Source: Candidatus Pacearchaeota archaeon
GTDB taxonomy: Archaea; Nanobdellota; Nanobdellia; Pacearchaeales; GW2011-AR1
DNA length: 34,332 bases
Assembly: GCA_016188895.1 (NCBI GenBank)
Contig: JACPGZ010000049.1
Coordinates: 1-34,332 of the forward strand
Direction of reading: 5' to 3'
The notes under the pieces were generated by a model that was not told the origin of the DNA, searched no databases, and saw only the letters and a list, made by a program, of their open reading frames with translations. Positions within the stretch are counted from its first letter, which is position 1. Each line of letters opens with the position of its first letter. The translations under genes and the position numbers were made by a program. This document shows, in pieces, positions 23,879-26,656 of this stretch.

Positions 23879-26656
23879 TTACTGATTCTCCGCCAATCCT
23901 TTCCTATCTCTTATTCTTCTTATAATATCTTGCTGGAGTTCAGCCGGCATTTTCTCAAACATCTGATCAAACAGCGATGAAACTCCGCGGCCTTCTGTAG
24001 CTGACCTTAAATCAGAACTCCACCCAATCATCTCTGCAACAGGAATTTTTGCCTTGATTTCTGCAAGCACTCCTTCCTGCCTTGCATCAAGGACTTTGCC
24101 TCTTTTTGACGATACTAATTTTATAATTTCTCCCATAAATTCAGCCGGGACATCAATAACATGAATTTGTATAGGCTCAAACATTACTGGCCCAGATGTT
24201 TTAAATCCTTGAGTTATAGCATCTCTTATTGCCGGATAAACTTGTGCAGGGCCTCGATGTATAGCATCTTCATGAAGTTTTGTGTCTACAAGAGAAACTT
24301 TAATTCCCATGCAAGGCTCTCGTGATAAAGGGCCTGCGTCCATAACCATCTCAAATGCATCCATTATCATATCTATAACTTCTCCTATATATACCTCACC
24401 TCTTGTTTTTTCTAGAAAGACATTTGCTTTATAGATATCTTTATACTGCCTCGCCTCGTCATTGCTTATTCCACATCTATTCAATGTTTTCCATAACTCT
24501 TCGTCCTTCTTTTTAATTCTCCCTTCTGAAATATCCCCGTTTTTGACTGCTTCATAGACCTCTTTTTCAAGAGGCTCTACTTTTATATAGAATATATTGT
24601 GTTTGTTTGGAGAGCGACCTTCCATCTCCATGGATTCTCTGGTCACAGTTTCTCTATAGACAACAACAGGGTCTCCTGTTTTTACCTCAACACCCTTTTC
24701 TGTTTTAATCCTGTTTTCTATAATTTCTAAATGAAGCTCGCCCATTCCGCTTATTAGATTCTCTCCTGTTTCTTCATTTATAGATACTTTAATAGAAGGA
24801 TCCTCTTTTGCTACTTTTCTTAAAACTTCGATAAGTTTTGGCAAGTCAGCTGGTTTTGTAATTTCAATTGACTTTGTTATAACAGGCTCAAATATATGCT
24901 TTAATTCTTCAAATGGATGCTGAGGGTTTAAAGTTACAGTTTCTCCCGCATTTCCAGTTATTCCTGCAATGGCTAAAACATTTCCAGCTGTTATCTTTTC
25001 CATCTGCTCTGGTCTTATTCCATTATAAATCAAAACCTGCTGAATAGCTTGCTTTTGCTTTGCATTATTCAGATAAACCTGCATTCCAGGAACTAATGTG
25101 CCTGAAAATAATCTTCCGGCTGATATTTCCTTTCCAGAGCGAGGATCAATCACGATTCTTGTGATTACAAAAGCAGGTTCTCCGTTTGGATTTACATGAA
25201 GAAGATTTTTGCCAAACTCGCTCTCCAAATCACCGCGCCATATTTTCGGAATTCTGTATTTTTGAGCTTCAATCGGAGACGGAAGATGCTTTACTACCAT
25301 ATCAAGAAGAACTTCATATAATGGAGCATTTTTCCACGCCCACTCCTTTCGTTTGTCATCTTCCATTGAATACATATTTAGAATATCTTTGAATCCTATA
25401 TTCCTCTTCTGCATAAATGAGAATGATAATGCCCAGTTATCCCTGGCAGAGCCAAATGCAACACTTCCTTCCCTGATGTTTACCTGCCATTTCTTTTTGT
25501 ATTCGGGCTCTGCAATATGCTCAATCAGTGTATTGAACTTAAAGATAACTTTCTGCAATCTTTCCTGAAGTACTTCAGGAGTTAATTTTAGTTCTTTGAT
25601 AGCTCTGTCAACTTTGTTTATGAATAGAACTGGTTTTACCCGCTCCCGCAATGCCTGTTTTAAAACTGTTTCTGTCTGCGGCATAATTCCCTCTACAGCA
25701 CACACCAATACAACAGTGCCATCTATCGCACGCATCGCTCTTGTAACATTTCCACTAAAATCAACATGTCCTGGAGTGTCAATAAGGTTAATTAAGTATT
25801 CTTTGTCTTGATAATCATGAACCATAGAAACATTTGCAGCGTCAACTGTCATTAGTCTTTCCTGCTCATCTGCATGCTGCCATGTTGCCATTCCCTCTTC
25901 CAAAGAGCCGGCTATTTTTGAAGCCATTAACCCGGCTGCTGCAAGAAGGTTGTCTGTCAGGGCTGTGTTATGGATAACCATTCCTTCTGCTATGAAATTA
26001 TGCGTTTCTGGAATGGTAAAGTCATATACTATTTCTTCGAAACTTGACTCTATTTTACTGACTTCAACAAAGGCTAAATCAGGATAAGGGTTTTTCATTA
26101 ATTGAATTAATTTTTTATTTCCATCGCTGATTTCTATGTAGTTATATTTAGATTTATCTGAATTCTTTTCTCTGCAAAATAAATCAGATTCTGTATTTCG
26201 CGCACATACAACTCTGTCTCCAATTTTTAAATCTCTCGCTTCTATATCTTTAAAGCCATCTTTCCATATTGTGTATTTATGTTCTGGAGTTGTAGATATT
26301 TCAAAGCCATTTCTCAATCCTATTTTTAAAGTGTTTCCACCTTTTAATCTCCATACATATTGTATAGGCTTTCTTTCAATCTTGCCTGTATCTTTATTAA
26401 GTGAAAAAACAATTATTTTTTCGTTTGGAATAAAAATTGTATAGTCTTCATTTTCTTCTTTTATAATGCAATCTTTAGAAACTTCTTCAAATATATCTTT
26501 AGCTTTCTTTATTGTTCTATCCACAAGCATTAGTCTAGAATTTCCACTAATGCACTTACCGTGATGTATATGGGCAGAAGTGGCAATATTCCTGATAAAT
26601 TCGGACTTGTGCATAATTCTTGCAATGCGCTGTAAATTTGTCTCTCCTTTTGCCAT
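23879..26656 (-). CDS. fusA: Archaeal translation elongation factor 2 with P-loop mini-intein
   Basis: 925 residues, of which 35-230 are an intein; the spliced protein would be 729 residues, the normal aEF-2 length. Extein motifs: G1 AHIHHGK|TALTDNLL (27-34 and 231-238), switch I ADEQERLMT (262-270), G3 LIDTPGHVDF (291-300), G4 LFINKVDRA, and the domain IV loop HEDAIHRGPAQVYPA, whose His in I-H-R-G is the diphthamide site. It catalyses GTP-driven translocation on the ribosome. H31 replaces the usual Asp of H-[IV]-D-H-G-K, and L268-M269 replace G-I of R-G-I-T. Without splicing the P-loop is broken, so cell viability would require intein removal. It closes a gene run with hisS upstream on the same strand. 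Confidence 0.96.
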   Translation of the reverse strand: MAKGETNLQRIARIMHKSEFIRNIATSAHIHHGKCISGNSRLMLVDRTIKKAKDIFEEVSKDCIIKEENEDYTIFIPNEKIIVFSLNKDTGKIERKPIQYVWRLKGGNTLKIGLRNGFEISTTPEHKYTIWKDGFKDIEARDLKIGDRVVCARNTESDLFCREKNSDKSKYNYIEISDGNKKLIQLMKNPYPDLAFVEVSKIESSFEEIVYDFTIPETHNFIAEGMVIHNTALTDNLLAAAGLMASKIAGSLEEGMATWQHADEQERLMTVDAANVSMVHDYQDKEYLINLIDTPGHVDFSGNVTRAMRAIDGTVVLVCAVEGIMPQTETVLKQALRERVKPVLFINKVDRAIKELKLTPEVLQERLQKVIFKFNTLIEHIAEPEYKKKWQVNIREGSVAFGSARDNWALSFSFMQKRNIGFKDILNMYSMEDDKRKEWAWKNAPLYEVLLDMVVKHLPSPIEAQKYRIPKIWRGDLESEFGKNLLHVNPNGEPAFVITRIVIDPRSGKEISAGRLFSGTLVPGMQVYLNNAKQKQAIQQVLIYNGIRPEQMEKITAGNVLAIAGITGNAGETVTLNPQHPFEELKHIFEPVITKSIEITKPADLPKLIEVLRKVAKEDPSIKVSINEETGENLISGMGELHLEIIENRIKTEKGVEVKTGDPVVVYRETVTRESMEMEGRSPNKHNIFYIKVEPLEKEVYEAVKNGDISEGRIKKKDEELWKTLNRCGISNDEARQYKDIYKANVFLEKTRGEVYIGEVIDMIMDAFEMVMDAGPLSREPCMGIKVSLVDTKLHEDAIHRGPAQVYPAIRDAITQGFKTSGPVMFEPIQIHVIDVPAEFMGEIIKLVSSKRGKVLDARQEGVLAEIKAKIPVAEMIGWSSDLRSATEGRGVSSLFDQMFEKMPAELQQDIIRRIRDRKGLAENQ
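25967..26554 (-). other. 196-residue mini-intein in the EF-2 P-loop
   Basis: 588 bp in frame. Block A starts at Cys1 (CISGNSRLML). Block B is GFEISTTPEHKYTIW with the T-x-x-H motif at intein residues 89-92. Block F is VYDFTIPETHNFIAEGMV. Block G is I-H195-N196 followed by extein Thr+1. These are all residues needed for standard class 1 protein splicing with Cys1, penultimate His, terminal Asn and Thr as nucleophiles. No LAGLIDADG or other endonuclease motif fits in the ~60-residue linker between blocks B and F, so it cannot home by itself. The insertion separates Lys34 from the P-loop Thr. Confidence 0.95.

Follow-up and report, generated by a model that had tools for sequence, protein, structure and literature searches.

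The EF-2 gene of the window is split at its P-loop

We analyzed a 34,332-nucleotide stretch (the window) of contig JACPGZ010000049.1 from the genome of a Candidatus Pacearchaeota archaeon (GCA_016188895.1). An ORF of 925 codons, stop-free throughout, occupies positions 23879..26656 of the minus strand and encodes a precursor of EF-2, the factor that moves the ribosome along mRNA. The archaeal EF-2 equivalog profile (aEF-2, TIGR00490) matched residues 230-922 with 916 bits against a cut-off of 738, placing the protein among the archaeal EF-2s when its insert is ignored. The surrounding genes are ordinary archaeal ones, e.g. HisRS, FEN-1, and thermosome. We directly observed a single EF-2 copy in the assembly, which is 86.6% complete, so that a second copy may conceivably have been missed.

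The insert comprises residues 35-230 of the ORF (25967..26554, minus strand; 196 aa, Cys1 to Asn196), and it lies between Lys34 and the Thr of the P-loop, with the flanks ...AHIHHGK and TALTDNLLAAAG. On its N-terminal side, an extein of 34 aa (26555..26656, minus strand) ends in ...AHIHHGK and carries the P-loop up to Lys34, as aligned with intein-free relatives. The C-extein (23882..25966, minus strand; 695 aa) holds the remaining GTPase domain and domains II-V by profile matches. The intein borders are exact because about 40 relatives have an EF-2 of 720-750 aa without the insert, reading ...AHI[HD]HGKT[AT].[TS]DNLL. With residues 35-230 computationally removed, EF-2 is 729 aa long, its GK-T P-loop is intact, and the DAIHRG loop is present. 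The GC content of the intein is 0.29, compared with 0.39 for the C-extein.

The EF-2 lineage of the window reads AHIHHGKTA (26555-26575 and relatives) in place of the usual AHIDHGKTT, i.e. the P-loop Asp is replaced by His. On the EF-2 tree, AHIHHGKTA-type proteins form a single well-supported clade.

The insert has the anatomy of a class 1 mini-intein

The profile PF14890 (Intein_splicing) scored the insert at 71-76 bits, where the cut-off is 35.8. Block A holds the first splicing nucleophile, Cys1 (codon at 26552..26554, minus strand), which is invariant in all aligned EF-2 inteins. Block B (TTPEH, residues 88-92; 26279..26293, minus strand) provides the TxxH motif, while block F (residues 174-189; 25988..26035, minus strand) spans the VYDFTIPETHNFIAEG region. 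Block G (25967..25972, minus strand) consists of the penultimate His195 and the terminal Asn196. Aligning nine short EF-2 inteins, we find Cys1, TTPEHKY, Asp178, His185, and Asn196 among the invariant positions; in relatives, the penultimate residue varies among His, Ser, Cys, and Asn. Without exception, the 48 complete EF-2 inteins have Cys as their first and Asn as their last residue, and Thr comes next. This +1 Thr (25964..25966, minus strand) is at once a splicing nucleophile and the P-loop Thr of EF-2.

An AlphaFold2 model of the intein reached a pLDDT of 87, and Foldseek matched it with probability 1.00 to the PhoCDC21-1, TvoVMA, and PhoRadA inteins. The PhoRadA and CDC21 inteins were also recovered by sequence when the intein profile was searched against the PDB. 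The lowest model confidence (pLDDT 58-74) falls on a linker at about residues 119-158 (26081..26200, minus strand). Alignment with the full-length inteins of two relatives (G434 and G483) shows that this is the place of the LAGLIDADG domain. No LAGLIDADG domain was found in the 196-aa insert, while endonuclease-bearing relatives carry about 280-320 aa there. The window copy is therefore no homing intein, although LAGLIDADG domains occur in relatives at the same site.

Anatomy, conservation, and fold are thus direct observations: an in-frame insertion at a conserved site with insertion-free homologues, a HINT fold and profile, Cys1, the TxxH block B, a His-Asn end, and Thr+1. By established intein chemistry, these residues define a class 1 intein, which is predicted to splice. 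The first-pass annotation had proposed a 196-residue, endonuclease-free intein with complete splicing blocks between Lys34 and the P-loop Thr. PF14890, TIGR00490, and the intein-free relatives agree on the intein and its place, and the short linker bears out the missing endonuclease.

Cys117 (26204-26206) is invariant in the nine aligned mini-inteins, though it is no standard splicing residue. A redox role of Cys117 is possible. The genome of the window, about 1 Mb in size, contains many inteins (loci L002-L008; contigs C46, C32, C40, C29, and C37, also C38 and C2). By our reading, their hosts include MCM, the PolD large subunit, a HerA-like ATPase (at its P-loop GK/T), and CDC48, which holds several.

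The GK/T intein of EF-2 is patchily distributed and has repeatedly lost its endonuclease

A search of DPANN genomes for EF-2 with an insert at this site, which the first-pass annotation had called for, was fruitful. By our count, 13 of the 181 genomes in the Pacearchaeota family of the window have the intein, as do 28 of the 371 in the phylum sample. The named records with an intein at the site include Candidatus Pacearchaeota and Woesearchaeota, besides one from Micrarchaeota, three from Halobacteriales, and one from Nitrososphaeria. In a sample of 148 genomes from the phylum of the Halobacteriales genome, two more site inteins appeared besides the seed. The annotation's suggestion that no EF-2 example had been described does not carry over into novelty, since there are 48 distinct complete EF-2 inteins at this site, also outside DPANN.

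Thirty-seven of the 48 are 472-611 aa long, and their endonuclease status was judged by size, with a LAGLIDADG-like motif matched in most. The other 11, including that of the window, are mini-inteins of 183-222 aa. The intein tree requires at least nine switches between mini and full forms; branch support for the position of the window's intein is not strong. One mini (G377) and one full intein (G434) come from a single genus and are sisters on this tree. Their splicing domains gave a dN/dS of 0.046. For the window intein and that of a relative (G115), the value was 0.16, a rough figure as dS to the nearest relatives is high. Judged by these ratios, the splicing domains of relatives are under purifying selection.

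On the EF-2 tree, presence of the intein changes at least 17 times, and the majority of same-family relatives are intein-free. Patchy presence and repeated endonuclease loss are, like the anatomy, seen directly. Because presence is patchy and relatives carry endonuclease-bearing copies at the same site, the window intein appears to be what remains of a mobile intein after loss of its endonuclease. The earlier view that it is fixed or maintained by necessity does not survive the intein-free majority, the at least 17 changes, and the endonuclease-bearing copies. The window intein is a degenerate mobile element whose clean removal is difficult, and a need for it is unsupported by evidence.

Several other loci deserve mention. 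A woesearchaeotal intein-free EF-2 (L171, 3950-6148), which groups with that of an intein-bearing genome (G281), reads GK-C-AFTDN (GGAAAA TGC GCA TTT). Here a Cys stands where the P-loop Thr would be and looks like a retained Cys1; either an intein deletion may have left this scar or the assembly may be in error. In archaeon GW2011_AR18 (G495, L086), the EF-2 intein is missing its C-terminal block, the C-extein is missing its start, and the frame changes there; this broken intein-extein junction can be read either as a broken gene or as an assembly collapse. An apparent split intein in two frames (G015) was rejected, as an N-filled scaffold gap separates the parts and the second continues the LAGLIDADG domain. 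Nor are the long EF-2 frames of G689 and G598 due to inteins; their extra length is open sequence past the gene ends. In Nanoarchaeota, Diapherotrites, and Micrarchaeota, IF-2 has inteins at the homologous site, GHVDHGK/T (L076 in G166; L156, L157, and L159).

Putative BHB introns lie 9 nt upstream of the intein site in relatives

In 13 of 378 related genomes, EF-2 carries an insert of 22-39 nt between AHID and HGK, 9 nt upstream of the GK/T site. Nearly all of these inserts contain stops or shift the frame. Three of the genes also carry the intein (L084 3488-3565 in G221; L089 929-1009 in G257; L088 787-860 in G356), while the others do not (L192-L198, L200, L206, and L223). Woesearchaeota supply two of the intron-and-intein cases, G221 (JACPNF010000040) and G257 (JAGWAC010000024). 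The G221 insert reads GCCCATATTGAT|AGTTTTACTTGTTAGTAATAACAAGTTTACCAATAG|CATGGGAAATGT, takes a bulge-helix-bulge (BHB) fold, and has cut points that restore AHID-HGK. In-frame stops had seemed to lie inside the G221 intein; this reading was discarded, as the stops belong to the separate, putative RNA intron upstream.

A first covariance model recovered nine more EF-2 introns in intein-free genes, and a second, built from those twelve, raised the number to thirteen with G549, whose BHB is looser. Among the first twelve introns, 88.7% of the cells are paired, against 27-41% with slid partners. Cells changed on both sides number 36, against 13 (sd 3) in shuffles. The covariation score is 0.529, compared with 0.168 for shuffled alignments, and five of five inner-helix pairs covary. 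These pair counts leave out a 14-sequence alignment (with G549 and aIF2-gamma), in which the inner helix is misaligned. The Ile codon of exon 1 has T or C at its wobble position, and in 12 of 12 cases the intron has the matching A or G.

The inserts display two short bulges, a helix of about 4 bp, and exact exon borders. Several copies are canonical; others are relaxed, with an end mismatch or a wider bulge (e.g. G257 and G549). A tRNA-splicing endonuclease (PF01974) is encoded in G000 and in each of the first 12 intron genomes. The twelve intron genomes tested have one EF-2 gene apiece. In one genome (G555) that has an EF-2 intron, aIF2-gamma is split by a like intron, GHVD|30 nt|HGKTTLTERL (L239, at ~1518, minus strand). 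The 22-39-nt inserts are apparent, putative BHB introns of mRNA.

Three genes carry both intron and intein; to build one P-loop, each would have to be spliced first as RNA and then as protein, at sites 9 nt apart. We consider it likely that the EF-2 P-loop codons of DPANN are a target of two unrelated elements 9 nt apart, BHB introns between the Asp and His codons of AHID/HGK and inteins at GK/T. Both would occur together in at least three Woesearchaeota-type genomes, whose active site would be assembled by RNA and then protein splicing, and the intron would also have reached the same position of aIF2-gamma.

EF-2 is very probably restored by protein splicing in the window

The occurrence of such introns in the same gene, only 9 nt away, makes RNA splicing plausible in the clade, and the window's own insert might in principle be removed as an RNA intron. 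However, its frame is open, the catalytic residues and the fold of an intein are conserved, and related copies are under purifying selection. The region has no Rfam match, and canonical BHB motifs are absent from the intein borders. Neither covariance model gave a strong match in the window's EF-2, in which we thus find no BHB intron. An RNA intron, the outcome that the first-pass annotation had named as fatal to its reading, is excluded as far as sequence allows, and we regard it as extremely improbable. We give as little credit to a dead or artefactual insertion, i.e. a pseudogene, a misassembly, or a contaminating contig. The source is a metagenome assembly, and one relative (G495) has the broken junction described above. 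Against this stand 925 codons without a stop, all motifs intact, in the sole EF-2 of the bin, ordinary archaeal neighbours, and homologous inteins at exactly this position in 12 further same-family genomes.

A different proposal, following the first-pass annotation's idea of a control point, concerns the reason for its retention: the intein would be kept as a conditional switch, with the rate of its splicing adjusting EF-2 activity to conditions. Its P-loop placement would mean zero activity until splicing, and the intein has three further cysteines, of which the invariant Cys117 could in principle respond to redox. Yet the majority of relatives do without the intein, it is often gained and lost, we saw no link between splicing and a signal, and retention of a mini-intein is expected without any benefit. 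Such a switch is very unlikely.

In our judgement, the segment is very probably a class 1 cis-splicing mini-intein, a member of an EF-2 GK/T family that moves or has moved among archaea by LAGLIDADG homing, and its endonuclease has been lost here. From established intein chemistry, we infer the following steps and their occurrence in the cell. The entire 925-aa precursor would be translated, and the intein would fold between the P-loop halves. Cys1 would attack the carbonyl of Lys34, and the P-loop Thr (+1) would then take over the N-extein. Cyclization of Asn196 would release the ligated 729-aa EF-2 with a normal GK-T P-loop. Loss of the endonuclease in the window lineage, as in several others, would have left the short linker. 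The intein would persist because EF-2 is essential, so that splicing must be kept, and because clean deletion is rare. As the assembly (86.6% complete) has one EF-2 and the insert parts the P-loop Lys from its Thr, EF-2 should be inactive before splicing; this part of the first-pass annotation is well grounded.

Discussion

The window intein adds a DPANN branch to the P-loop inteins and makes the only translocase detected in the cell dependent on a splicing step. It belongs to an already known kind of element, and a regulatory reading of it is unsupported. The site exists in full, mini, empty, and possibly scarred states, a natural series in which endonuclease loss can be studied. The putative BHB introns near the EF-2 P-loop, which lay outside the view of the first-pass annotation, are more surprising than the window's intein. 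With them, one of the most conserved GTPase motifs would be hit by two kinds of splicing element. If true, they would widen the set of confirmed archaeal mRNA introns past the cbf5 case. Such an intron would lie about 100 nt from the start codon where transcription and translation are coupled, which raises the question of how it is removed before ribosomes read its stops.

As of 2009, archaeal pre-mRNA splicing was confirmed for cbf5 only (PMC2738675). All 39 of 39 archaeal group I introns reported in 2018 lie in rRNA genes (PMC6125680), and a 2023 survey recorded one intein from two DPANN genomes (PMC10643990). The cbf5 intron is crenarchaeal (PMC2738675), whereas those described here are from DPANN, in EF-2 and once in aIF2-gamma, inside P-loop codons; unlike the cbf5 intron, the EF-2 introns adjoin an intein in three cases. 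In the literature searched, mostly freely available journal papers, no text described an EF-2 intein from DPANN, an mRNA intron in EF-2 or aIF2-gamma, or an active site in which an intron and an intein adjoin. We take this absence as weak evidence of novelty.

Among known inteins, those in the P-loop of archaeal IF-2 resemble the window's in position (GHVDHGK/T of a homologous translation GTPase) and in intein class. They differ in the host protein, and the copies that we read still have endonucleases, whereas the window copy has none. For Methanopyrus kandleri, InBase has an EF2 intein, which we liken to the window's only by its host, EF-2. The PhoRadA, TvoVMA, and CDC21-1 mini-inteins are the best PDB matches by sequence and fold, sharing the fold, the blocks, and the class 1 residues. 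Their identity to the window intein is about 20%, however, and their hosts are a recombinase, an ATPase, and a helicase rather than a translation factor.
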